A DNA stretch of 64,000 nucleotides, taken from assembly GCF_001187785.1 (NCBI RefSeq), contig NZ_CP012154.1, forward strand, positions 1,916,501 through 1,980,500, given 5' to 3'. Positions 24,295 through 64,000 of this stretch are shown in pieces; position 1 is the stretch's first letter, and each line of letters opens with the position of its first letter. Below the pieces are notes generated by a model that ran no database searches, was not told the DNA's origin, and was given only the letters and a program-made list of their open reading frames with translations. The position numbers and the translations under genes were made by a program. This stretch comes from Wenzhouxiangella marina (lineage in GTDB: Bacteria > Pseudomonadota > Gammaproteobacteria > Xanthomonadales > Wenzhouxiangellaceae).

Positions 24295-24601
24295 CGTTGG
24301 AGCCTTCGGTCCTTAGACGGCAATTCCAAAGCTTGTAGTAGCGTAGAAAGAAAATCGGGGGGCCCATGAGCGCCAGATCGGCCACATCGGTCAAATCGAA
24401 CGATGGCTCGATTCTCTTGGATCCACTGCCAGACACCGCTAGGCGGCGTGATCGGGGGAGGCCAGCTTCAGCGACACGATCGCCGACGACTCCGTTGCGA
24501 GCGATATGGCCACCGTCTCGATCTCGGTCCGAACCATGGAGATCTTCCGGGATCGCTTTGAATAGGGGCCAGACCCAGGACAGGCCACCACCTGACCGGC
24601 A
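24295..24601. other. Intergenic stretch without a supportable gene
   Basis: About 300 bp with short open frames on both strands that lack family resemblance and good starts. It contains TTTGAATAGGGGCCA (24557-24571), which recurs exactly, inverted, at 35888-35902 and resembles sequence often found beside repeat-associated transposase genes. It may be a decayed remnant; nothing further can be said. Confidence 0.4.
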
Positions 24602-24892
24602 TCAAGGCTGATCGTTGTCTCGGGCCACGTAGGTAATGAAGAAGCCCTTGAGGTCACCGTCTTCCACATAGGGCTCGACGTCGATCACCGTGTAGCCGCG
24701 CTCGTAGTACTCGGCATGCAACTCGGTCATCGCCGCTGCCGCGCGATGGGTGCGGGTGAGGGGATTGACGTCATGGTAGATCGTCAGGCCCTGACCGGGC
24801 TCGGGGCTGAAATGACGATGGTCTTCGGCTTTGAGGCCTGAGCTCAGCATCGGCCCGCACAGCGCGACGGCCAATAGCAACTTGTTGATCAT
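24602..24892 (-). CDS. Small secreted protein, unknown family
   Basis: 96 residues from ATG 24892 with AGGAGAG upstream; a longer in-frame start has no ribosome-binding site. A signal peptide (MINKLLLAVALCGPMLSSGLKA) precedes a short mature domain with HFSPEPGQGLTIYHDVNPL and a charged C-terminal half, YYERGYTVIDVEPYVEDGDLKGFFITY. No recognised domain. It is divergent from the first beta-helix gene and could share regulation through the palindrome at 25064. Confidence 0.7.
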   Translation of the reverse strand: MINKLLLAVALCGPMLSSGLKAEDHRHFSPEPGQGLTIYHDVNPLTRTHRAAAAMTELHAEYYERGYTVIDVEPYVEDGDLKGFFITYVARDNDQP

Positions 24893-25063
24893 GTTTTCCA
24901 CTCTCCTGGACTGGTGAGTCACGTTCCATACCCTTGCTTCACACGGCGCGGGCAGGGCCATGCCCGACCTCAAGCTTAATGCTTTCTTCGCGCCCGTCGT
25001 GAGTTCTTCATGCCCTTCGTGTTCGGGATTTCACTCGCTACCCACAGGCCTAAGTTCGAGAAC

Positions 25064-25081
25064 ACTGGCAGATCTGCCAGT
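25064..25081. promoter_or_regulatory. LuxR-type (las/rhl-like) box, perfect 18-bp palindrome
   Basis: ACTGGCAGATCTGCCAGT equals its own reverse complement and contains the CT-N12-AG form bound by LuxR-family regulators such as LasR and RhlR. It adjoins the -35 element of the promoter for the beta-helix gene at 25138. Confidence 0.75.
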
Positions 25082-25109
25082 TGATCAGGCCATCGCTGCG
25101 GGATAGATT
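25081..25109 (+). promoter_or_regulatory. Candidate activator-dependent promoter of the first beta-helix gene
   Basis: A -35-like TTGATC (25081-25086) and a -10-like TAGATT (25104-25109) are 17 bp apart, each matching 4 of 6 consensus bases. The LuxR-type box would be centred near -43 relative to a start at about 25116, the class II activator position. Confidence 0.55.
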
Positions 25110-25137
25110 TTCGCTCTGATCTCAAGGGGCGGCACGC

Positions 25138-27450
25138 GTGGGTTCGACGCGGCCGAATCAGACCATGCTAAGACACTCCTTTCTGACCGCCGCCGTCGCG
25201 CAGGCACTGCTGCTGGGTGCCGCCAGGGCGGCCACCATCACCGTCGATGCAACCATCGATGCGGTGCCGGCCGACGACGGCAGCTGTACGCTTCGCGAAG
25301 CCATCGAAAACGCCAACACAGACAGCCAGAATGGCCGCACCAGCCCGGGTGAGTGCGAGGCGGGGCAGGGGGCCGATCTGATCGACTTCGATGCGAGCAT
25401 ATTCGGCGGCACCCAGATCATCACCCTGAGCCAGGGCGAGATGGTGATCACCGAGTCGATCACGATCGCCGGCACCGGCGCGGAGCTGCTGACGATCGAC
25501 GCCAATCAGGCCAGCCGCCATTTCCATATCGACGATGGCAGCAGCGGCGAGCTCAGCCAGGCGAACCTCAGCGATCTGGCCCTGGTCAACGGATCGGTCA
25601 CCGGGAACGGCGGCGCGATTCTGACGCGTGAGAACCTGATCCTCGAACGATCGACGATTTCCGGGAGTGTTGCGGAAGGAAGTAGCGTTGGGATCGGCCG
25701 AGGAGGGGCGATCTATGCCGGTGGACAAGGCACGCCCAACGCATATCTGATGATCGAATCGTCAAACCTGATCAACAACGAGTCCCATATCTTTGGGGGC
25801 GCAGTCGTCGCTGAATTGGGTGATGACAGCTCCGTTGTCATCAACGACAGCTTTGTGGAAAACAACGCGTCCCTCCAGTCCGTCGGCGGCGCGAGAATAC
25901 GATCGGGCATCAATGCCTCGATCCTGATCCAGAACAGTTCGATCAGTGTCAATACGAGCGTCTTCAACTACGGAGGACTCTTCATTCAGGTCGACGAGTC
26001 CAGCTCGGTTGTTTTGCAGGATACGGTGGTTTCGCAGAACTCGGGCAGGAGGATCGGCGGCGCGGAGATTCGCCTCGACTTCAGTCCGGCAAATGCGCCC
26101 GGTTCCCTCTCCATCCGAGACAGCTTCCTATCGGGAAACCTCGCTGAATTCGGCCCCGCAGGCCTGGCCACCTCTGCTCTGGGCCATGTCGACACAACGA
26201 TCGAGCGAACCTCGATCAGGAACAATACCGCGACCCGTAGCTATGGCGGTGCGAACGTTTCATGGCATTCGGGCGACGTACAGATCATCGACTCGACCAT
26301 CTCGGGCAACGTGGCGGGCCAGAACTCCGGCGGACTTTATCTCTCCTCCTATTCCGACCAGTCGGCCATTCTTGGCAATGTGTCGCTGATCGGGAGCCGG
26401 ATCAGCGGTAATTCGGCGGCATCGATCGGTGGACTCAAGGTCTATCTGTATGGCAGCGAGCTTTCGGCAGCCAATCTGCTGATTTCAGGAAGCGAGATCT
26501 CGGACAACAGCGCCTACGACACGGCCGGCGCCGAGGTCTATCTCTACGGGCGCTATTCATCGACGTCGGCGACCATCTCCAACACGACGATCTCGGGCAA
26601 CGAGGCGGATCGTTTCAATGGCGGGCTTCGCGTGCGCGCCACACGAGAGCCGGGCGAGACGCATGTCAATACCATCGAACTGGTGGACAGCACTGTCACG
26701 GACAATGCGGCGGACCTTGCCACCGCGACGCCGGGTGCCGGGGCGGGGATCCGCCTCTACGACATCGAGCCCGGCGCCGGACGCCTGAGCCTGAACCGGA
26801 GCATCGTGGCCGGTAACCGACTCGGCGGCGCGGGCACAGTGGTCGACCTGGACGCCAACGGTGTCGCCATCGAGGCGGCCTATTCGCTGATCGGCGACAA
26901 CACGGGCTCGAGCCTGGCCGAAGCGCCTCTTGGATCACCCGATGCCAATGGCAATCTGATCGGCGATCCGAATGGAAGCGGTGTCATCGACCCGCGCCTG
27001 GGGCCGCTGTTCGAAAACGGCGGGTCGGCCCGAAGCCATGCGCCCAGGGCCAGCTCACCGGCACTGGATGCGGCAGGGACCGCCTGCAGCGGCCCGGACC
27101 AGCGCGGCGTGCCTCGGCCGCAGGGCGCGGCCTGTGACATGGGTTCGGTGGAGCTGACCGACGGGGTGTTTTCCGATCGCTTCGAGGCCTCGACGGTCAT
27201 CACCGAGTTCGGCCGTCGAGTGGCCCGACTCGTGCGGGCGGGGCTGCTTGGGCTGCGAAGCGAGTCCTCCGAGGCCACTTTGCTGCTCGAGGCCAACGAG
27301 CCGGGGGCCCCGGATTTGCGTCACGCCTGGCTGCATGGGCGACATCGAGGGCGGGATCCCGAGATCCGCCTGTCGCGCTTCGAAGACGGCCAACTGAGCC
27401 TGGGCGCCTGGGTGGCCGTGACGGAACCTCATCTTGAAATTCGCTGGTAG
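25138..27450 (+). CDS. CSLREA-type right-handed beta-helix exoprotein, copy 1
   Basis: 770 residues from GTG 25138, which has AAGGGG 8 nt upstream; ATG 25165 (MLRHSFL) aligns with the start of copy 2 and is an alternative. After a signal peptide ending near ARA comes the CSLREA-type segment (DDGSCTLREAIENAN), then about 500 residues of irregular beta-helix repeats with ISGN, GGA and GGL turns. A conserved block SLIGDNTGSSLAE follows, then the FSDRFEAS motif and an about 90-residue C-terminal domain ending in Trp. Probably secreted or surface-exposed. No catalytic site is recognisable. Copy 2 follows 53 nt downstream. Confidence 0.85.
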   Translation: MGSTRPNQTMLRHSFLTAAVAQALLLGAARAATITVDATIDAVPADDGSCTLREAIENANTDSQNGRTSPGECEAGQGADLIDFDASIFGGTQIITLSQGEMVITESITIAGTGAELLTIDANQASRHFHIDDGSSGELSQANLSDLALVNGSVTGNGGAILTRENLILERSTISGSVAEGSSVGIGRGGAIYAGGQGTPNAYLMIESSNLINNESHIFGGAVVAELGDDSSVVINDSFVENNASLQSVGGARIRSGINASILIQNSSISVNTSVFNYGGLFIQVDESSSVVLQDTVVSQNSGRRIGGAEIRLDFSPANAPGSLSIRDSFLSGNLAEFGPAGLATSALGHVDTTIERTSIRNNTATRSYGGANVSWHSGDVQIIDSTISGNVAGQNSGGLYLSSYSDQSAILGNVSLIGSRISGNSAASIGGLKVYLYGSELSAANLLISGSEISDNSAYDTAGAEVYLYGRYSSTSATISNTTISGNEADRFNGGLRVRATREPGETHVNTIELVDSTVTDNAADLATATPGAGAGIRLYDIEPGAGRLSLNRSIVAGNRLGGAGTVVDLDANGVAIEAAYSLIGDNTGSSLAEAPLGSPDANGNLIGDPNGSGVIDPRLGPLFENGGSARSHAPRASSPALDAAGTACSGPDQRGVPRPQGAACDMGSVELTDGVFSDRFEASTVITEFGRRVARLVRAGLLGLRSESSEATLLLEANEPGAPDLRHAWLHGRHRGRDPEIRLSRFEDGQLSLGAWVAVTEPHLEIRW

Positions 27451-27503
27451 GCCTCCGGCGCGCTCGACTGAGCCTCCAGGAACCTGCTGCACAAGGATCG
27501 ATC

Positions 27504-29783
27504 ATGCTGAAACCTAGCCTTCTGGCCATCGCCATCGCTCAGGGACTGCTCCTGCCTTCTGCACGAGCAGCGCTCATCACCGTCAACAGCGCCAACGACG
27601 GGCTGCCGGCCGATGACGGCAGCTGCACCCTGCGCGAGGCGATCGAGAACGCCAACACCGACTCGCAGAACGGCCGCACCAGCCCGGGTGAGTGCGCAGC
27701 AGGCAGCGGGGTCGACGAGATCGGATTCGACCCGGGCCTGTTCGGCAATGTCCAGCTGATCAGCCTGAGCCAGGGGGAGCTGGCCATTTCTGAATCGTTG
27801 TCGATCACCGGTCCGGGTCGGGACCTGCTGACGATCGATGCAAACCAGGCCAGCCGACATTTCAATATCGACGACGGCGTCGCTGGCAGCTTGAGCGAGG
27901 TGTCGATCAGCGACCTGAGCCTGAGCAACGGCGCGGTCAACGGGAACGGGGGCGCAGTCCTGAGCCGCGAGAATCTCTCGCTGTCGCGTTCGACGATCAG
28001 CGGCAGCTCTGCGCTGCCCAACGGCCCCACTGGAGGCGGCGCCATCTACGCTGGTGAGGCTGGCACCGCCAACGCCACTCTGAGTCTCGATGCAGTCACG
28101 CTGAGTGGCAACTTTGCGCGCACCTGGGGGGGCGCCTTGCGCGTGGAGTTCGATGAATCGGGCTCGGTCACCGTGTCCAACAGCGCCATCCTCGATAACT
28201 TTTCGCAACAGAGTGGTGGTGGGGCCTGGATTCGAGTCGGCGCAAACGGCTCGATCAGCCTCCAGGGCAGCCAGGTCAACGACAACGAGAGCGTGAGCAA
28301 TTACGGTGGCTTGTTCCTGCGCGCCAACGGCGGCAGCGAGATTCTGCTCTCGGGCACCACGCTCAGCGGCAATCTGAGCCGGGTCATCGGTGGTGCGGAA
28401 ATTCGATCCTATGAAAGCACGGCCGGCGCGCCGGGCACGATCACCCTTCGCGACACGATCATCTCGGGCAACAGCGCGGAATTCGGCGCGGCCGGCCTGC
28501 GGAGTGCGGCGGGTCCCTATGTGGATACGCTCGTCGAGCGAACCCTGATCGATGGCAACACGGCAGACCGGAGCGTCGGCGGCGCCAATCTGGTCTGGTC
28601 TTCAGGCTCCCTGAATATCGTGAATACGATCGTCTCGGGTAACAGTTCGAATGAGCGCATCGGCGGACTTGTACTTTACAACGGCACCGGACAATTCGAA
28701 CTCACAGGCACAGCCACGATTACCGACAGCCGGATCGTCGGCAACGCGGCCAACTCGATCGGCGGGCTCTATGCGTATCTCTATGGGAGCGAGGTCTCGG
28801 GCGCCAACCTCACGATCTCGGGTACTGAAATTTCCGGCAACACGGCTTACGACACGGCCGGTGCCCAGATCTATCTCTACGGCCGCTTCTCCCCCGTAAC
28901 GGCGACAATTTCCAACTCGACCATCTCGGGCAACCAGGCCGATCGATCCAACGGTGGGCTGCGCCTTCGCGCCTCGCGCGAAGCGGGAGAAACGCACGTC
29001 AGTACGCTCGAGTTGGTCGACAGCACCGTGACCGACAACGCCGCCGATCTTGCCGCCGCGACGCCCGGCGCCGGGGCGGGAATCCGTCTCTACGACATCG
29101 AGCCCGGTGCCGCTCGCCTGAGCCTGAACCGAAGCATCGTGGCCGGTAATCGCCTTGGCGGGACGGGCACCCTGGTCGACGTGGACGCCGACGGCGTGGC
29201 CGTCGAGGCGGCCTATTCGCTCATCGGCGACAACACGGGCTCGAGCCTGGCCGAAGCGCCGCTCGGCTCGCCCGACGCGAACGGCAATCTGATCGGTGAC
29301 CCCAACGGGAGCGGCATCATCGACCCGCGCCTGGGGCCACTCACGGACAACGGCGGGACGACCCGCAGCCATGCATCCAGGGCCAGCTCGCCGGCACTGG
29401 ATGCGGCGGGGGGCAGCTGTGGTGGTATCGACCAGCGCGGCGTGCCACGTCCCCAGGGCGAAGCCTGCGACATGGGCTCGGTCGAAAACGTGGACGATCT
29501 GTTCAAGGATCGATTCGAAGCCAGCACCTCAAGCGCCTCTTTTTCGAACGACCTCGTATGGCTCGATCGGCAAGCGCTCGATAGCCTGCTCGGTCCATCA
29601 TCCGGGCCAGTGCTTGCCCTGCAGGGCAACGCGATCGGTTCATCGACGCTGCAACAACGCTGGGCGCAGGTCCGTCGCTTCGATGACCGGTTGGAGCTCC
29701 GCTTGAGCCGGGCGCGGGGGGATCGCATCGAACTGGGCAACTGGACGCCGGTCACGCGCCCTCAACTCGCGCTTCACTGGTAA
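27504..29783 (+). CDS. CSLREA-type right-handed beta-helix exoprotein, copy 2
   Basis: 759 residues, ATG with AAGGA upstream, signal peptide MLKPSLLAIAIAQGLLLPSARA. It is a paralogue of the preceding protein with the same order: CTLREAIENANTDSQNGRT, beta-helix repeats, SLIGDNTGSSLAE block, FKDRFEAS motif and a C-terminal domain ending LGNWTPVTRPQLALHW. The N- and C-terminal parts are very similar to copy 1, and the middle is more diverged. The genes are probably one transcript under the LuxR-type box. The luxR-type gene lies immediately downstream on the other strand. Confidence 0.88.
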   Translation: MLKPSLLAIAIAQGLLLPSARAALITVNSANDGLPADDGSCTLREAIENANTDSQNGRTSPGECAAGSGVDEIGFDPGLFGNVQLISLSQGELAISESLSITGPGRDLLTIDANQASRHFNIDDGVAGSLSEVSISDLSLSNGAVNGNGGAVLSRENLSLSRSTISGSSALPNGPTGGGAIYAGEAGTANATLSLDAVTLSGNFARTWGGALRVEFDESGSVTVSNSAILDNFSQQSGGGAWIRVGANGSISLQGSQVNDNESVSNYGGLFLRANGGSEILLSGTTLSGNLSRVIGGAEIRSYESTAGAPGTITLRDTIISGNSAEFGAAGLRSAAGPYVDTLVERTLIDGNTADRSVGGANLVWSSGSLNIVNTIVSGNSSNERIGGLVLYNGTGQFELTGTATITDSRIVGNAANSIGGLYAYLYGSEVSGANLTISGTEISGNTAYDTAGAQIYLYGRFSPVTATISNSTISGNQADRSNGGLRLRASREAGETHVSTLELVDSTVTDNAADLAAATPGAGAGIRLYDIEPGAARLSLNRSIVAGNRLGGTGTLVDVDADGVAVEAAYSLIGDNTGSSLAEAPLGSPDANGNLIGDPNGSGIIDPRLGPLTDNGGTTRSHASRASSPALDAAGGSCGGIDQRGVPRPQGEACDMGSVENVDDLFKDRFEASTSSASFSNDLVWLDRQALDSLLGPSSGPVLALQGNAIGSSTLQQRWAQVRRFDDRLELRLSRARGDRIELGNWTPVTRPQLALHW

Positions 29784-29808
29784 GGCGGGCCGGGCAGGGC
29801 GCTTGTGT

Positions 29809-30609
29809 CTATCCCCTCGCCCGTCTCGGCTGATCTGATTCGTCGGGCGGACGTTCCGGGCCGAACGGCGAAAGACCGTATTCGACTGCGGCAAAGGCCA
29901 CCAGCTGCTGCAGGCTGTGCAGGCCCGTCTGTTCCTTGGCGCGTTCCAAGTGATATCGGACGTTGGAATAGCTCATCCCGATGATTCGTGCAGTGTCTTC
30001 CAGCGACTTGCCAGCGACGATCCACTGCAGGCACTCCAGCTGGCGCTCGCTGAGAACGGAGCGATGCTCTGCTTCGATGCCCCAGGGCTGCCGGGCCAGA
30101 CAAGCGGTCGTCAACAGCACCAGTTCCCGTACGACCGAGTCCGGAATCGGCTCGAACAGCCCGATAAGCGCGCCCAGGCCTCGCGGCGCATGGGGGTAGG
30201 GGACTGCGATCAGGTCCTTGAGCCCTCGCCCATCAGGCGGTTTGGTGGATCGGAGAATGATTACCGTCGAGAAAGGCAGGTAGCGAGAATAGCGGCGAAG
30301 GTGAAACGGCTGAGCGCGGGTCAAGGCCCAGCGCAGCAGCCAGGCCGGTGTGTTGTCGAAACCCTGCTGCGCAAAATCTTCGACCGAGAGCGCCTCCAGC
30401 TCACCGGACAGATCCTGGGCCCAGTGCACCTTTACCTCGTGGGCGGCGTGGCGCTCCAGGGGGTAACTGAAGCCGCAGACGCCGGCCACTGGCCGCTGGC
30501 GCAGCGCCTTCAACAAATCATTCAAGGCCCGATCACTGCTTTCCGCCTGCAACAGGCTCTGCAGCTCCGTATGTAAGTCCTGAGTCAATGTCCCTGCGCC
30601 TTGAGTCAC
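29809..30609 (-). CDS. LuxR-family transcriptional regulator (solo)
   Basis: 266 residues from a GTG; the start is weakly supported. Residues about 15-170 resemble an autoinducer-binding domain (GLKDLIAVPYPHAPRGLGALIGLF). A LuxR-type helix-turn-helix follows from residue 186 (LSERQLECLQWIVAGKSLEDTARIIGMSYSNVRYHL). The invariant Trp, Tyr and Asp-Pro residues of acyl-homoserine-lactone binders are not clearly present (FDNTPAW where DP is expected), so the ligand may differ. No luxI gene lies in the window. It is convergent with copy 2, and a near-copy of the palindrome at 25064 sits just upstream of its start. Confidence 0.88.
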   Translation of the reverse strand: MTQGAGTLTQDLHTELQSLLQAESSDRALNDLLKALRQRPVAGVCGFSYPLERHAAHEVKVHWAQDLSGELEALSVEDFAQQGFDNTPAWLLRWALTRAQPFHLRRYSRYLPFSTVIILRSTKPPDGRGLKDLIAVPYPHAPRGLGALIGLFEPIPDSVVRELVLLTTACLARQPWGIEAEHRSVLSERQLECLQWIVAGKSLEDTARIIGMSYSNVRYHLERAKEQTGLHSLQQLVAFAAVEYGLSPFGPERPPDESDQPRRARG

Positions 30610-30613
30610 GCGG

Positions 30614-30631
30614 ACCGGCCGATCTGCCAGT
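30614..30631. promoter_or_regulatory. Second LuxR-type box, upstream of the luxR-type gene
   Basis: ACCGGCCGATCTGCCAGT differs from the perfect palindrome at 25064-25081 at 2 of 18 positions. It ends 5 bp before the GTG start of the regulator, which would suit autorepression. Confidence 0.6.
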
Positions 30632-30704
30632 CGAATCGTCTACGAGGTCGCCAGTGTACCGGAAGCCCTCAGAATGGCGTCGATGGGAGTGCCCGGATCC
30701 AATG

Positions 30705-30730
30705 AAAAGCCCCGGCGCGAACCGGGGCTT
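30705..30730 (-). terminator. Terminator of the 974-residue beta-helix gene
   Basis: A 9-bp stem (AAGCCCCGG/CCGGGGCTT) with a 6-nt loop. On the minus strand it is followed by TT and a short T-rich stretch, 31 nt after the gene's stop. Confidence 0.7.
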
Positions 30731-30760
30731 CTTCAACACAAGAACAAGGCCGCGACGGGA

Positions 30761-33685
30761 TCAGCCGCCCAGGGTTCGACGAATGCCGAACAGACCAAGC
30801 ACCATCAAACCGGCCCCCAGCAGTGCGGTTCCGACCCGGCCCATGACAGGGACGGGAAGGGCGGGACCGGCAGGCCCGGCCACGGCCGAGCCACTGAGCT
30901 GGACGGCCGAATCGCCGCCGAAGCTGTCGGACAGCAAGGCGACCGTCGCGTTGGCCGCCCCGGGCTCGGTCGGATCGAAGGCGAAGCTCAGCGTGCACGA
31001 TTCTGCCGGAGCCAGCACCGTCGGACCCCCATCGAGACACAGGCCGGGGCCGGTCACCAGACTGAAAGGCGGCATCAGGGCACTCGCATCGCTGAAGGTC
31101 AGCGGTGCATTGCCCGTGTTGGTTACCGTTGTCGAGCCGATGAGGCTGTCGCCCACCGAAATGGCGCCGAAATTGATCGATGGCGAGCTGAGGCTCAGCA
31201 CCGGTGCCAGGCCGACGCCGCTGACGGGCACGAGATCCGGGCTGCTCGGGGCATTCGACGGAATGCTCAGATTGCCGGTGAAGTTGCCCAGGGCAGGGGG
31301 CTGGAAAGTGACGTCGACCGTGCAGCTGGCCGTGGGTGCGAGGGTCTGGTTCGAACACGTATCGTTGAGCAGACCGAACACCCCGCCGCCCCGGACGGTC
31401 GAAATGGTCAGCGTCCCAAGGTCCAGATTCCCGGTTCCGGTGCTGGTGATGGTCAGCTGGGCAGAATCGTTCAGGCCGACCAGCAGGCCGCTGAAGTCGA
31501 TGGCCGAGGTCGATAGACCGACATCCGGCTCGATCAGCCCCTGGAATTCATAGGCGCCCATGTCAGCGGCGGCAGCGACCAGCCTGGGAAAGCCCGGCCC
31601 GCGTTGATCATAACTGGGAAGACCGCTGACCGCGCCGCCGTCGATGGCTGGCGAAGCGGCTGCAAGCGCATGCGTTCGTCCGTTGTTGGGCGAGCCTCCG
31701 TTCAGCGCCAGCGGAGCGAGCAGGGGATCGACGTCGAGCAGGTTGCCGGCGCCGCTGTAGCTCAGACCCGCGGAATCGCCCACCAGTGAGGTATTCAAGG
31801 ACACCACTGCCAGATTGGTCTCGATGTCCGAGGCACCGTAGTAGGTGCTGTTGTCTGCGATGATCGAGTTGTCGATCGAACCATTGGCGTCGGTCAGCAC
31901 GCCCCCGACCAAAGAAAAGCCACCACGAGTGGCCAGGCTCGCGTAGTTGGAAGCCACGGTAGTAAAGTTCATGACCAGGTTGCTGGCGGAAATCCCGCCG
32001 ACGAACCCGCCAGCATTGCCACTGACGGTGGAATTCTGGATGTCCACCTGGGAGCCCTGGCCGCGAGCGCCGAACAGATCCGCAGCGATGCCGCCGACAT
32101 CGCCGCCGCCGTTGCCGGAGAACTCGGAATACTTGACGCCGCAGATCGATCCTTGCTCGCATTGCAGGCCCGCGGCACCGCCGTCCAGGGCGGCGACATT
32201 GTCGAGCAGACGCGAGTTCTGCAGAATGCTGTAGCCCGAGGAACTGTAGACGCCCCCGCCATTGTTGCTCTGGATCAGGCTGGCGTTGAGACCGAGATAG
32301 GCGTCTGCGACGAAAACGCCGCCGCCGACCTGGGGAGCCGTGTTGGAGGAAACCGTACTGTAGGCCAGGTAGCCGTCGGCGCCCTGGAGCATGATTGCAC
32401 CGCCGGCACCGGATCTAGGGCCATAACCTCGATCGATGCCACCGCTCAGCACCTCGTTCTGGGTCAGCGTCAAGCCATAGCCCAGGAACCGTGGCCCACT
32501 GAGGCCTCGATTCGGCGGCGGCAGCACACCGTAGTAGGACGCCATCACTACCGCACCGCCGGATTGAGCGGCCGTGTTGTTGGCAAAGCTCGTGGTACTG
32601 GCCTCGACAGCGGAGTTCAGACCACCGATGGCCGCCCCGAAAACAGCGTAGTTGTAGTCGAAGCTGCTGTCGGTGATGAGAATCTCGTTGGACAGGGGAA
32701 CCGGCGCCCCCTGGGGCCCCGGGCCGCCCGTGATCACTGGCGCCGCCGCGATGGCGCCGCCGGTTTGAGCGGAATTGGCCAGGAAGAACGAGTTGTCGAT
32801 GCTCAGGTTGACCGGCGTCGTGCCGGTGATGATCACGGCGGATCCCGTCGTGCCCGCAGCCCGTTCAGGGCGTTTGCCGCCACTGATTTCGTTGTAGCCG
32901 GCGCCGATGGCACCACCGCCGATCTGGGCCAGATTGTTGTAGAAGTAACTGTTCTCGACCACGAGCTGGGCGGTCAGGTAACCCGGCGGAGGACCGCCCC
33001 GCTGCGGATTCTCGAGGGGGCTGACCTGAGCGCCAGCACCGAAATCCGCCTCGTTGTAGAAGAAGCTGGAGTTGCTCACTCGCGCATAGCCGCGAGTGAC
33101 CCCGATGCCGCCGCCCTGGTAGGTGGTCCGATTGAAGTTCAGCGCGCAATTGTCCACGGAAACCGCGGCTCCGTAGACCTCGATTCCGCCGCCCAGATAA
33201 AAGGCGTAGTTGTTGGAGATCAGACAATCCTGAAGGCTCACGTCAGCATCGTTGTGCGCGTAGACAGCGCTGCCGTTGCTGCTGTATCCGCCGGTCAGGG
33301 TGATGCCGCCGATGGTCGCAGTGGCACCATCGACATTGAAGATTCTAGAGCTGCTGTTGGCATCGAGCGTCAGATCGGCCGATCCGGGCCCGGCAATCGT
33401 CACGTTCGAGCTGATCAACAGTTCGCCGTTGCTGAGCGTGATCGTGCCGGTCAAGCCGGGTTGGAAGACGATCTGATCATTGATCCCGTCACCAGCGTCG
33501 CAGCTGTCGACCGCTGACTGCGTATTGACGGCCTCGATGGCCGAGCGCAGCGTGCATTCCTCGACGAAGCCCGGATCATCCAGGGAATCGACGGTGATGG
33601 TTGCGGCGGACAGTTGCGCAGCCGACAAGGAGGCGGTGATCGCCAGCGCGAGGCGAGAAGGATTGACTTGGTACTTCGCGGACAT
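30761..33685 (-). CDS. Beta-helix exoprotein with ASH-like domains and C-terminal sorting-like tail
   Basis: 974 residues. A signal peptide (to about residue 28) leads into ATITVDSLDD and a CSLREA-related ECTLRSAIEAVN segment, then about 630 residues of right-handed beta-helix repeats rich in GGG, NN and SS turns. Two choice-of-anchor/HYDIN-like beta domains follow (VGLSTSAIDFSGLLVG...; LSLSSPSINFGAISVG...). The end has a short PVPVMGR motif, one hydrophobic helix and a basic tail IRRTLGG, resembling IPTL/PEP-CTERM sorting signals. It is likely a surface protein processed by a sortase-like enzyme encoded elsewhere. More distantly related to the two CSLREA copies. Divergent from the PilJ-like lipoprotein. 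Confidence 0.85.
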   Translation of the reverse strand: MSAKYQVNPSRLALAITASLSAAQLSAATITVDSLDDPGFVEECTLRSAIEAVNTQSAVDSCDAGDGINDQIVFQPGLTGTITLSNGELLISSNVTIAGPGSADLTLDANSSSRIFNVDGATATIGGITLTGGYSSNGSAVYAHNDADVSLQDCLISNNYAFYLGGGIEVYGAAVSVDNCALNFNRTTYQGGGIGVTRGYARVSNSSFFYNEADFGAGAQVSPLENPQRGGPPPGYLTAQLVVENSYFYNNLAQIGGGAIGAGYNEISGGKRPERAAGTTGSAVIITGTTPVNLSIDNSFFLANSAQTGGAIAAAPVITGGPGPQGAPVPLSNEILITDSSFDYNYAVFGAAIGGLNSAVEASTTSFANNTAAQSGGAVVMASYYGVLPPPNRGLSGPRFLGYGLTLTQNEVLSGGIDRGYGPRSGAGGAIMLQGADGYLAYSTVSSNTAPQVGGGVFVADAYLGLNASLIQSNNGGGVYSSSGYSILQNSRLLDNVAALDGGAAGLQCEQGSICGVKYSEFSGNGGGDVGGIAADLFGARGQGSQVDIQNSTVSGNAGGFVGGISASNLVMNFTTVASNYASLATRGGFSLVGGVLTDANGSIDNSIIADNSTYYGASDIETNLAVVSLNTSLVGDSAGLSYSGAGNLLDVDPLLAPLALNGGSPNNGRTHALAAASPAIDGGAVSGLPSYDQRGPGFPRLVAAAADMGAYEFQGLIEPDVGLSTSAIDFSGLLVGLNDSAQLTITSTGTGNLDLGTLTISTVRGGGVFGLLNDTCSNQTLAPTASCTVDVTFQPPALGNFTGNLSIPSNAPSSPDLVPVSGVGLAPVLSLSSPSINFGAISVGDSLIGSTTVTNTGNAPLTFSDASALMPPFSLVTGPGLCLDGGPTVLAPAESCTLSFAFDPTEPGAANATVALLSDSFGGDSAVQLSGSAVAGPAGPALPVPVMGRVGTALLGAGLMVLGLFGIRRTLGG

Positions 33686-33791
33686 CGAAGAAGGCTCCCC
33701 AGAATGTTGCTACAGGCGCATATCTCCCTGAATAGCGCCAACCAGGCCCGTATTGTGACGCTGATCCCAAAACAATACAAATCGGAGCCTG

Positions 33792-33807
33792 GGTCGGTGG
33801 GCCGACC
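33792..33807. promoter_or_regulatory. GC-rich palindrome in a divergent intergenic region
   Basis: GGTCGG-TGGG-CCGACC forms a 6-bp inverted repeat with a 4-nt centre, about 107 bp upstream of the 974-residue gene and 136 bp upstream of the lipoprotein gene. A possible operator; the protein is unknown. Confidence 0.35.
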
Positions 33808-33835
33808 GACCTTCCTGACCAAACCAATAATTATA

Positions 33836-33851
33836 CATAATATACATTATG
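33836..33851. promoter_or_regulatory. AT-rich palindrome in a divergent intergenic region
   Basis: CATAAT-ATAC-ATTATG is a perfect 6-bp inverted repeat within an unusually AT-rich run (about 33825-33852). It also contains -10-like hexamers, so it may be a promoter, an operator, or both. Confidence 0.45.
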
Positions 33852-33942
33852 CGAACTTATGGGCGAGGCAAGACGCGAGGACATGCATGGCATACTGTTT
33901 TTTGTTGGCCGTTCTGCTTCCATCATACGGGGACTTGAAACC

Positions 33943-34839
33943 ATGCGATTCGCAAGATCCGCTTCACTCATTGGACTGGTACTGCTCTGTTCAGGCTGCG
34001 ACCAGTTCGGCCCGGCGGTCAGCCTGCATCAAGATCGACAACAGACCATTGAGCAGCTGCAAACCATTTCGGAGCTTCAATACGCGTTGCGAGCGTTCCC
34101 TATGGCAAGTCGCGAAATCCCGAATGGCAATGCAGATGCCATACAGGAGCTACTCGCCATTCAGAGCAGCGTCAGAGCTCTGCTCCAGTCTCTTCAAGAT
34201 GGTGGCATCGGCGAAAACCCACATAGGGGATTCTCATACTTCGCGACGTTCGAGGAGATCCAGTGGAATTGGGAACAGACCGACGCGCGCATCACGGCTC
34301 TGCTCGAGCAGAGTTCAACCATGTTGAACCTGCACGAGGAAAAAGTCCGGCTCCATGAAGCGATCCCTCAGATTCAAATGCGCCTTGACCAGACCGCCAT
34401 GCAATTGATCAGCTCGCAAGCTCCAGCGGTTCAGGTCCACTTTACGAACCGTCTGATGACCCTGACGGAACGATGGATCCGCAAATCCGAAGCGATCCTG
34501 GCGGGTCCCTTTACAGGTCGAGCCATGGTTGCCAGCGCCACTGGGGAACTGGATTACTTCAAGCATATTCAAACGGCGCTGCTGAACGGCAGCGAGACCC
34601 TCGGACTCGGCGCTATCGAAGACAGCCAGGCTCGAGAAATCCTGCTCCAAGCCTCTCGCGATATCGACGCCGCAGAACATGCTCTACGCTCACTTATCGA
34701 GCAAAGCGAAGCGATCGTGGAGATCAATAGTCTAGCCGACACGATCTGGCTGGATGTAGAGGACTTGGCACAAGACTGCCTGACGCTGTCGCGGGAAATC
34801 GCTTCTGCAAGCCAGACAGGCAGCGCGCGCGGAGAGTAG
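33943..34839 (+). CDS. Lipoprotein resembling the PilJ periplasmic sensor region, without a signalling domain
   Basis: 298 residues from ATG 33943. A lipoprotein signal ends in LLCSGC, so Cys18 or so would be acylated. Two helical modules follow that I align by eye with the periplasmic modules of the pilus chemoreceptor PilJ: residues about 30-105 (LQTISELQYALRAF...NGNADAIQELL) and about 115-290 (NLHEEKVRLHEAIPQIQ, VHFTNRLMTLTERWI, LLNGSETLGLG, SLADTIWLDVEDLA). No HAMP or methyl-accepting domain follows; the frame stops there. Codon use is more AT-rich than in neighbours, suggesting transfer. No other pilus genes are in the window. A ligand-binding or decoy role is inference. Confidence 0.7.
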   Translation: MRFARSASLIGLVLLCSGCDQFGPAVSLHQDRQQTIEQLQTISELQYALRAFPMASREIPNGNADAIQELLAIQSSVRALLQSLQDGGIGENPHRGFSYFATFEEIQWNWEQTDARITALLEQSSTMLNLHEEKVRLHEAIPQIQMRLDQTAMQLISSQAPAVQVHFTNRLMTLTERWIRKSEAILAGPFTGRAMVASATGELDYFKHIQTALLNGSETLGLGAIEDSQAREILLQASRDIDAAEHALRSLIEQSEAIVEINSLADTIWLDVEDLAQDCLTLSREIASASQTGSARGE

Positions 34840-42981: not shown

Positions 42982-45900
42982 ATGGACCGCGAGAACTCCG
43001 CCGCACCGCCCTTCATCCATCTTCGGCTGCACACCGAGTACTCGCTGGAAGACGGCACCGTCCGCATCGGCCCGCTGATCGACCGAGCGGCCGAGCTGGG
43101 CATGCCGGCCATCGCCGTCACCGATTGGCACAACCTGTTCGGCCTGGTGAAGTTCTATCGCAAGGCGATGGACAAGGGCATCAAGCCGATCGCCGGGGCC
43201 GATCTACGCGTATCGGACCCGGAACACCCGGAACGCTTCGGCGTCATCACCCTGCTGATCCAGGATCGAACGGGCTACCTCAACCTCTGCCGCCTGCTCT
43301 CGCGCAGCTTCCTGGAGGGACGCTTCCGGGGCCAGCCGCGGGTCCATCCCGCCTGGCTGAAGGGTCAGACCGAGGGCCTGATCACCCTGCTCGGCCGCAG
43401 CTCCAATCTAGGCCAGGCGCTCTCCAACGGGCGCCGAAATCTCGCCAGAAGCCAGCTGAACGAATGGCTGCAGCTGTTTCCCGGGCGCTGCTACCTGGCC
43501 CTGGAACGGCTCGGCCGGGATGGCGAGAAACTGCTCGAGAACGGCCTGCTCGATCTGGCCATCCAGACCGAGACGCCGGTCGTGGCCAGCAACGACGTCC
43601 GCTTCCTGGACCAGGACGATTTCTTCGCCCACGAGGCCCGCGTCTGCATCCACCAGAGCCGCCTCCTCGACGACAAGCGGCGCAGCCGCGACTACGTCGA
43701 CCAGCAGTATCTGAAAAGCTCCGAGGCCATGGCCGAACTGTTCGCCGATCTGCCCGTGGCCCTGCACAACACATGGGAACTGGCGCAGCGCTGCAATCTG
43801 GAGCTGACCCTGGGTGAATACGCCCTGCCGGCCTTCCCCGTGCCCGATGGCGAAACCGAGGCCGACTTCCTGCGCAGGAAGTCCCGCGAAGGTCTGGACC
43901 AGCGTCTGAAGCGCCACGGACTCGCGCCCGACACGACGCGAGAGGATTATGACCAGCGTCTGGAGCGTGAGCTGGAAGTCATCGTCTCGATGGGCTTCCC
44001 CGGTTACTTCCTGATCGTCGCCGACTTCATCACCTGGGCCTTCGAGAATGGCGTTCCGGTCGGTCCGGGCCGAGGCTCCGGTGCAGGTTCCCTCGTCGCC
44101 TGGGTGCTCGGCATTACCGGATTGGATCCAATACGTTACGAGCTACTCTTCGAGCGTTTTCTGAATCCTGAGCGCGTCTCGATGCCCGACTTCGATATCG
44201 ATTTCTGCGTCGAGGGACGCGATCGAGTGATCGACTACGTCGCCCAGCGCTACGGCCGCGATCAGGTGTCCCAGATCATCACCTACGGCACGATGGCGGC
44301 CAAGGCCGTGGTGCGCGACTGCGGGCGCGTGCTCGGCTACAACTACGGCTTCGTCGACTCGATCGCCAAGCTCATCCCCAACAAGCTGGAGATGACCCTC
44401 GACAAGGCGCTGGAAGAAGAGCCCGAGCTCAAGCAACGCTACGACAACGAAGAAGACACGCGCTCGGTCCTCGACCTGGCTCGCTCCCTCGAGGGCCTCG
44501 CCCGCAACGCGGGCAAGCACGCCGGAGGGCTGGTCATCGCGCCCAGCGCCCTGACCGACTTCACGCCGCTCTACACCGAGCCCGACGGCCATTCGGTGCT
44601 GACCCAGTACGACAAGAACGACGTCGAATCCGTGGGCCTGGTCAAGTTCGACTTCCTCGGGCTTCGCAACCTGACGATCATCGACTGGGCCCTGAAGGCG
44701 ATCAACGAGTCCCGCAAACAGAAGGGTCAGGACGAGCTGGTCCTCGATGACCTGCCCCTCGACGACGACAAGGCCTTCAAGCTGCTCCAGGCCGCCCATA
44801 CGACCGCCGTCTTCCAGCTCGAGTCTCCGGGCATGAAGGAGCTGCTGCGCAAGCTCAAACCCGACAGCTTCAACGACATCGTCGCCGCCGTGGCCCTCTA
44901 CCGTCCCGGCCCACTGGATGCGGGAATGGTCGATGAGTACATCAACCGCAAGCACGGCCGCGCGCCGGTCAAGTACCCGCACCCCCTGGCCGAGCCGATC
45001 CTCGGCGACACCTACGGCGTCATCCTCTACCAGGAACAGGTGATGCAGATCGCCCAGGAGCTGGCCGGCTACAGCCTCGGAGGTGCCGACCTGCTGCGAC
45101 GGGCCATGGGCAAGAAGAAGCCCGAGGAGATGCAGCGCCAGCGCAAGATCTTCGTCGAAGGTGCCGCGAAGAACGACATCCAGGCCGACCAGGCCGAACC
45201 CATCTTCGATCTGATGGAGACCTTCGCGCGCTACGGCTTCAACAAGTCGCACTCGGTCGCCTACGCTCTGGTCGCCTACCACACGGCCTGGCTCAAGGCC
45301 CACTACCCGGCCGAATTCATGGCCGCCGTGCTGTCCGCCGATCTCGACAAGACCGACAAGATCGCCAACCTGATCGAAGACTGCCGGGCGATGGGGCTCG
45401 ATATCCTGCCGCCGGACATCAATGCATCGGTCTATCGATTCAAGGTCGAGAACGGCGCGATTCGCTATGGCCTGGGAGCGATCAAGGGGGTCGGCGCCGG
45501 CGCGGTCGAGAATCTGGTCGATGTCCGGGAGCGGATCGGCGGCTTCGATTCCCTGTCGAGCTTCTGCCGGGAAGTCGATCTCGGCAAACTCAATCGCCGA
45601 ACCCTGGAGACCCTGATCCGGGCCGGCGCCCTGGACCAGCTGAACGAGAACCGCGCGGCGCTGATGGCCGCGCTGCCGGAGATCGTGCAGGAGGCCGAGC
45701 GCTTCCAGGCCGACCGGGAGGCCGGCCAGGCCAGTCTGTTCGGCTCAGCACCATCGGCACCCAGCGATCCGACACCGGTGCCTGGACGCAGCGTGCCGGA
45801 CGTTCGCCCCTGGACCGGACGCCAACGACTGCGGGCGGAGCGCGAGGCCCTGGGCCTGTACCTGTCCGGCCATCCGATGGATGAAGTCCGCGATGAACTG

Positions 45901-63765: not shown

Positions 63766-64000
63766 TCCTCAAGGTGATGGCCTTGAGTACCGCCCGCGTC
63801 CGATCCCGGGTACCCAGCTTGGCGAGAATGTCCGAGACGTAGTTCTTCACCGTTCCTTCGGCCAGATGAATCGTGTTGGCGATCTCACGGTTCGAATAGC
63901 CACCGGCCAGCAGGCGCAGAATCTCGATCTCTCTCGGCCCGAAGGGTTCGACCGGCGCGCTCTGATCATCGTAGCGGTAGTGCCCGCGCACCCGATCCGT
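63758..64000 (-). CDS. LuxR/NarL-type DNA-binding response regulator (partial, cut by right edge)
   Basis: Only the C-terminal about 80 residues are in the window; the frame stays open to the edge. They form a LuxR-type helix-turn-helix (FGPREIEILRLLAGGYSNREIANTIHLAEGTVKNYVSDIL). The pattern is that of two-component response regulators such as NarL/DesR; the receiver domain would lie beyond the edge. It overlaps the end of mutY by 8 nt. Confidence 0.88.
   Translation of the reverse strand, partial: TDRVRGHYRYDDQSAPVEPFGPREIEILRLLAGGYSNREIANTIHLAEGTVKNYVSDILAKLGTRDRTRAVLKAITLRII

Follow-up and report, generated by a model that had tools for sequence, protein, structure and literature searches.

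A LuxR-type box before a CSLREA operon of Wenzhouxiangella marina and its near copy at the adjoining regulator gene suggest a local two-operator circuit

According to a published account (PMC3907764), TraR binds 18-bp inverted repeats, which in the class II arrangement lie about 45 nt upstream of the transcription start and partly over the -35 element. The residues with which TraR contacts DNA are given in a further paper as Thr190, Met191, Asn203, Arg206, Arg210 and Lys221 (PMC9654057); a third names nine invariant residues of quorum-sensing LuxR proteins, in TraR numbering W57, Y61, D70, P71, W85, G113, E178, L182 and G188 (PMC4338825).

The locus described here lies in a window of 64 kb, which is the whole stretch of DNA that was analysed, and has a box before two genes for predicted secreted proteins and a near copy of this box at the gene of a GerE-type regulator, an arrangement that suggests a small two-promoter switch. 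Its features are as follows:

25064-25081, strand not applicable: site 1, ACTGGCAGATCTGCCAGT, a palindrome perfect over 18 bp that is proposed as the operator for the CSLREA genes
25081-25086, plus strand: -35-like TTGATC (4/6), whose first base is the last base of site 1
25104-25109, plus strand: -10-like TAGATT (4/6), 17 bp past the -35-like TTGATC
25124-25129, plus strand: AAGGGG, possible ribosome-binding site for GTG 25138
25138-27450, plus strand: gene 1, choice-of-anchor Q domain and CSLREA-like N-terminus below the cut-off; start at GTG 25138 or ATG 25165
27504-29783, plus strand: gene 2, CSLREA N-terminus above the cut-off and choice-of-anchor Q domain; separated from gene 1 by 53 bp
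29809-30609, minus strand: LuxR-type regulator of 266 residues, GTG start, C-terminal GerE helix-turn-helix at residues 184-240
30614-30631, strand not applicable: site 2, ACCGGCCGATCTGCCAGT, two mismatches to site 1, proposed autoregulatory operator

The 18-bp perfect palindrome of CT-N12-AG form, reported at 25064-25081 in a preliminary description of this DNA, is borne out, since the 9+9 pairs of ACTGGCAGATCTGCCAGT are all symmetric and the 16 bases at its core follow CT-N12-AG. Taken alone, site 1 is only mildly unusual. The window has two perfect 9+9 palindromes, where 40 second-order Markov simulations of 64 kb gave 0.83 on average, and one with CT and AG correctly placed, where the same runs gave 0.075; the other perfect palindrome (43865-43882, with an extra pair at 43864-43883) lies within a DNA polymerase III alpha gene. 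No Rfam element was matched in 24500-34000.

The promoter elements next to site 1 are both present as first described, a -35-like hexamer with a -10 spaced by 17 bp, but the pair they form is weak and scores 8/12. It is the sole 8/12 pair on the plus strand of 24974-25137, where 0.18 would be expected per 164 bp at the whole-window rate, and no pair of at least 9/12 was found on either strand of 24500-34000, a region for which shuffles expect 1.7. The pair is thus ordinary for this DNA, yet plausible as a promoter. With a transcription start estimated near 25116, the centre of site 1 would fall at about -43.5 and the site touches the -35-like element, which fits the geometry of class II activation (centre 42-45 nt before the start, touching the -35). 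The class II distance claimed earlier, with a centre near -43, holds in this sense, although only relative to a start predicted from an 8/12 pair.

Although CSLREA and choice-of-anchor proteins occur widely, they have received little study, and we know of no regulator for them. Genes 1 and 2 are 62% identical over 761 columns, both exceed the cut-off of NF041518 and both have signal-peptide-like starts, while TIGR04214 gives 30.1 bits for gene 2 and 22.3 bits for gene 1 with a cut-off of 25. They likely form an operon, because the scan found no terminator-like site between them. The strand-rich AlphaFold model of gene 2 (two sequences) has short strands, a mean pLDDT of 59 and moderate confidence in the middle of the protein; a Foldseek search with it gave no match at E <=0.001, and its top rows, at E 0.02 to 2, were mostly beta-helix proteins, so that a beta-solenoid fold can be proposed with low confidence. 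Of the earlier statement that the box precedes two secreted beta-helix proteins, the signal-peptide-like starts and the CSLREA and choice-of-anchor Q assignments stand. The 'surface display' put forward with it is not supported, as no anchor or autotransporter domain is among the Pfam and NCBIfam matches. Work on a type II secretion mutant lists a CSLREA protein among those less abundant in its supernatant (PMC9245377).

Further genes surround the operon. A third CSLREA-like gene, at 30761-33685 on the minus strand and upstream of the regulator gene, encodes one stretch of choice-of-anchor Q type and two of choice-of-anchor D type (ASH/HYDIN-like Ig), and has no copy of the box in front; between it and the regulator gene lies a GC-rich inverted repeat, perfect over 9 bp (30707-30730). 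On the other side, a divergent gene (24602-24892, minus strand) encodes 96 aa with a signal-peptide-like start and no Pfam match; it starts 172 bp from site 1 and could share a control region with the operon. Judged by coordinates, the other CSLREA genes among the matches listed for the genome have no place with the box at <=3 mismatches nearby, so the proposed circuit would be local and not a general control of CSLREA genes.

Site 2, which the preliminary description had missed, is what lifts the interest of the box above the mild. Its end is 4 bases away from the GTG with which the minus-strand LuxR-type gene begins. It keeps an imperfect symmetry (7/9 pairs) and is the sole further match in the window at <=3 mismatches, the next best ones having 5 mismatches (four places). 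When the half-sites were scrambled and made palindromic (n=200), one such pattern had at least one place in the window at <=2 mismatches and none had two. The whole genome, a single contig of 3,675,202 bases, contains the box at 5 places with <=2 mismatches and at 15 with <=3, whereas the reversed control pattern occurs at 0 and 5 places, respectively. Among the five copies at <=2 mismatches, two are placed as promoter elements, one 4 bp from the regulator gene and the other at the adjoining operon. In about 208.5 Mb of 60 relatives there are 14 places at <=2 mismatches; at this frequency, the chance that the 150 bp preceding a given gene contain such a place is about 1e-5, and it is about 1e-4 if the frequency is taken from the other three places in the genome itself. 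With a second copy at the start of the regulator gene, the link of the box to this regulator is stronger than was first known.

Of those other three places, one lies inside an accA-like gene, and its letters recur identically in a genome of the same genus (G019). The remaining two (3238447 and 3240040, one mismatch each) belong to a 141-bp repeat with two copies in the genome, at L026:8380-8520 and 3239972-3240112; these copies are 99% alike and about 1.6 kb apart, and each carries ACTGGCAAATCTGCCAGT about 150 bp ahead of an ORF of 344 aa, the first ORF, which is the one of the two that was tested, matching an IS200-like transposase (PF01797). Site 1 as a piece of such a mobile repeat was considered and is unlikely, because the flanks of the repeat sites and of site 1 differ by eye. 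All ten places with three mismatches share bases with one or more mechanical ORFs of >=90 codons, which is a weak test, since both repeat sites do so too.

The helix-turn-helix of the regulator is a Pfam match to GerE (PF00196, 2.4e-10, residues 184-240), and its N-terminal half, about 180 residues, has no Pfam match. Its best NCBIfam match is TraR, in the helix-turn-helix only and far below the cut-off, and the closest PDB entries, TraR, RhlR and LasR, are likewise close in the helix-turn-helix only. In the PDB-search alignment, Arg206 of the DNA contacts of TraR is kept, whereas Thr190, Met191, Asn203, Arg210 and Lys221 differ; among the invariant quorum-sensing residues, L182 and G188 are kept, E178 is replaced by Q and the six N-terminal ones cannot be reliably aligned. 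A single-sequence structure prediction had a mean pLDDT of 46.8, with the N-terminal half below 50. The gene is on the opposite strand, convergent with the operon and 25 bp past its last stop, and so does not form the end of the operon itself, as its earlier placement there had implied. GerE has 13 matches in the genome, 12 of them over the cut-off; a further GerE helix-turn-helix in the window (63782-63943, minus strand, 59.5 bits, in a frame of 263 aa) is found near its end.

Neither the regulator nor, among the matches listed, a close counterpart of the operon turned up in related genomes. Among the 60 relatives there is no full-length relative of the regulator, although four other genomes match it within the helix-turn-helix region alone. 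No full-length relative came from the family's other 42 genomes (E up to 0.01) either, where the partial matches were three within the helix-turn-helix and a fourth covering residues 21-65, and a search of genome_contigs by short patterns found no relative. Gene 1 has partial matches only in 60 other genomes, the best at E 2e-26 among the matches listed, with identities among these of up to 56% over short stretches. The exact 16-bp core was found at >=119 loci of genome_contigs with no linkage to LuxR genes (a single such gene, 2.2 kb off), a test that says little, as about 100 chance matches are expected by estimate and the number of loci is itself a lower bound. Microvirga accounts for 8 genomes in 80 of these >=119 loci (L142, L150, L151, L165, L178, L182, L185 and L194), a share that exceeds what chance would suggest and possibly represents one conserved site of the genus. 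At 30 LuxR and 4 LuxI loci from the order, palindromes of the same form near LuxR genes are few and none is identical, an example being GCTGGCCGAACGGCCAGG in L099 and L100.

From the sequences and positions of the two sites, the rarity of such a pair and the helix-turn-helix assignment, which are all observed, we infer binding, the transcription starts and whether each site activates or blocks, as a local circuit with two operators, to which we give a probability of roughly 0.6. The regulator encoded at 29809-30609 would bind the 18-bp palindrome as a dimer. At site 1, it would aid the RNA polymerase at a poor -35 element and so lead to transcription of the two CSLREA genes by class II activation. 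At site 2, which lies 4-22 bases before its own start codon, it would more likely block its own transcription, limiting its synthesis by negative autoregulation; blocking is the likelier effect there because no -10-like hexamer is found at the distance seen in the operon, the hexamer at that distance from site 2 being ACATTG, which scores 0/6. A signal would presumably act through the N-terminal half of the protein. In this way, the control of the operon by a LuxR-type regulator, as first proposed, retains the operator shape, the class II distance, the nearby GerE gene and now a second box, and loses density and surface display.

The earlier suggestion of density- or signal-controlled display is unsupported in its density part, and so is control by an acyl-homoserine lactone, as the genome gave no match to a LuxI-type synthase (PF00765, which the same search detects in 14 of the order's 299 genomes) or, in the regulator or elsewhere, to an autoinducer-binding domain (PF03472, detected in 49 of these 299 and also in E. 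coli). Acyl-homoserine lactone quorum sensing as an established fact is therefore rejected, and its solo form is left as a rival, in which the N-terminal half would be a strongly diverged autoinducer-binding domain that hears the acyl-homoserine lactones of neighbours, or related molecules. The quorum-sensing type of the helix-turn-helix speaks for such a solo, as does a BLASTP alignment with the LuxI-paired LuxR of L098, which runs from residue 117, upstream of the helix-turn-helix, into it (31% over 137 positions, E 4e-10 for that pair). The mean pairwise score against 24 LuxR proteins was equalled or beaten by 10 of 200 shuffles for residues 116-160 and by 22 of 200 for residues 96-181, and a profile built from LuxR proteins of the order (n=24) gave 0.1 bits to the N-terminal half, with 14 of 300 shuffles doing as well or better. 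Against it, besides the missing PF03472, 62 of 200 shuffles reached the same pairwise score when residues 1-181 were compared and 131 of 200 when residues 1-95 were, hhalign gave a probability of 0.2 over 13 columns, and its single-sequence model stays below pLDDT 50. The likeness to autoinducer-binding domains is at best marginally above shuffles; a distant domain of this kind is possible, and the solo reading as a whole appears unlikely to us.

The direction of control could also be the reverse, with the regulator repressing both the CSLREA operon and itself, and the box over the -35 blocking the RNA polymerase until a ligand releases the protein, as certain LuxR proteins do act as repressors (PMC4338825). 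Site 1 overlaps the -35-like element by its last base and site 2 sits at the regulator's own start, which is a repressor-like place, but a centre close to -43 beside a poor -35 suits a class II activator. Repressor-controlled promoters usually have better hexamers than the poor ones of this operon, and we hold repression at both sites to be improbable. A different dimeric regulator might instead own both sites, the nearness of the GerE gene being incidental and site 2 controlling the regulator gene from outside. A survey that covered the GerE family placed 12 matches of the genome above the cut-off, and most TraR DNA-contact residues are changed in the 29809-30609 protein, which leaves room for such a factor; that one of the two promoter-placed copies is 4 bp from a GerE gene, which itself adjoins the operon with the other copy, makes it quite unlikely. 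Finally, a functionless palindrome would agree with the 0.83 perfect 9+9 palindromes expected per 64 kb and with the window's other one lying in coding DNA, but the second copy of the box at the regulator gene leaves very little room for chance.

The two-operator circuit, set beside the described systems, shares its elements with several of them. The centre of site 1 equals the core of the tra box, GCAGATCTGC, whereas the outer half-site bases of the tra box differ from those of site 1. The likeness to TraR and the tra box of Agrobacterium Ti plasmids resides in the 18-bp inverted repeat and, here as predicted, the class II position at the -35 (PMC3907764). However, that system has a TraI-type synthase, whereas the genome here has none and no detectable autoinducer-binding domain, and in the same account no tra box precedes traR, whereas here the box precedes the regulator gene. 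The CviR box given in PMC9654057, CTGNCCNNNNGGNCAG, shares the CTG...CAG ends with N10, the C at position 5 and the G at position 12 of the 16-mer, but differs at positions 6 and 11, which are A/T instead of C/G, and the genome here is without the synthase gene. The LuxR solos, as defined in PMC4338825 by an autoinducer-binding domain that was not detected in the regulator here, are alike in their GerE helix-turn-helix and in a genome without a synthase. The set comprises a specific regulator with its proposed operator and target, and a helix-turn-helix of quorum-sensing type fused to a sensory half without family match. In a more far-reaching and less probable reading, a regulator with a sensory half outside all described families would have retained or gained a quorum-sensing-style operator, as a species-specific switch with two operators that turns on two large secreted beta-solenoid proteins and limits itself. 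If so, a lux-type operator would have outlived acyl-homoserine lactone sensing, or would have arisen apart from it.
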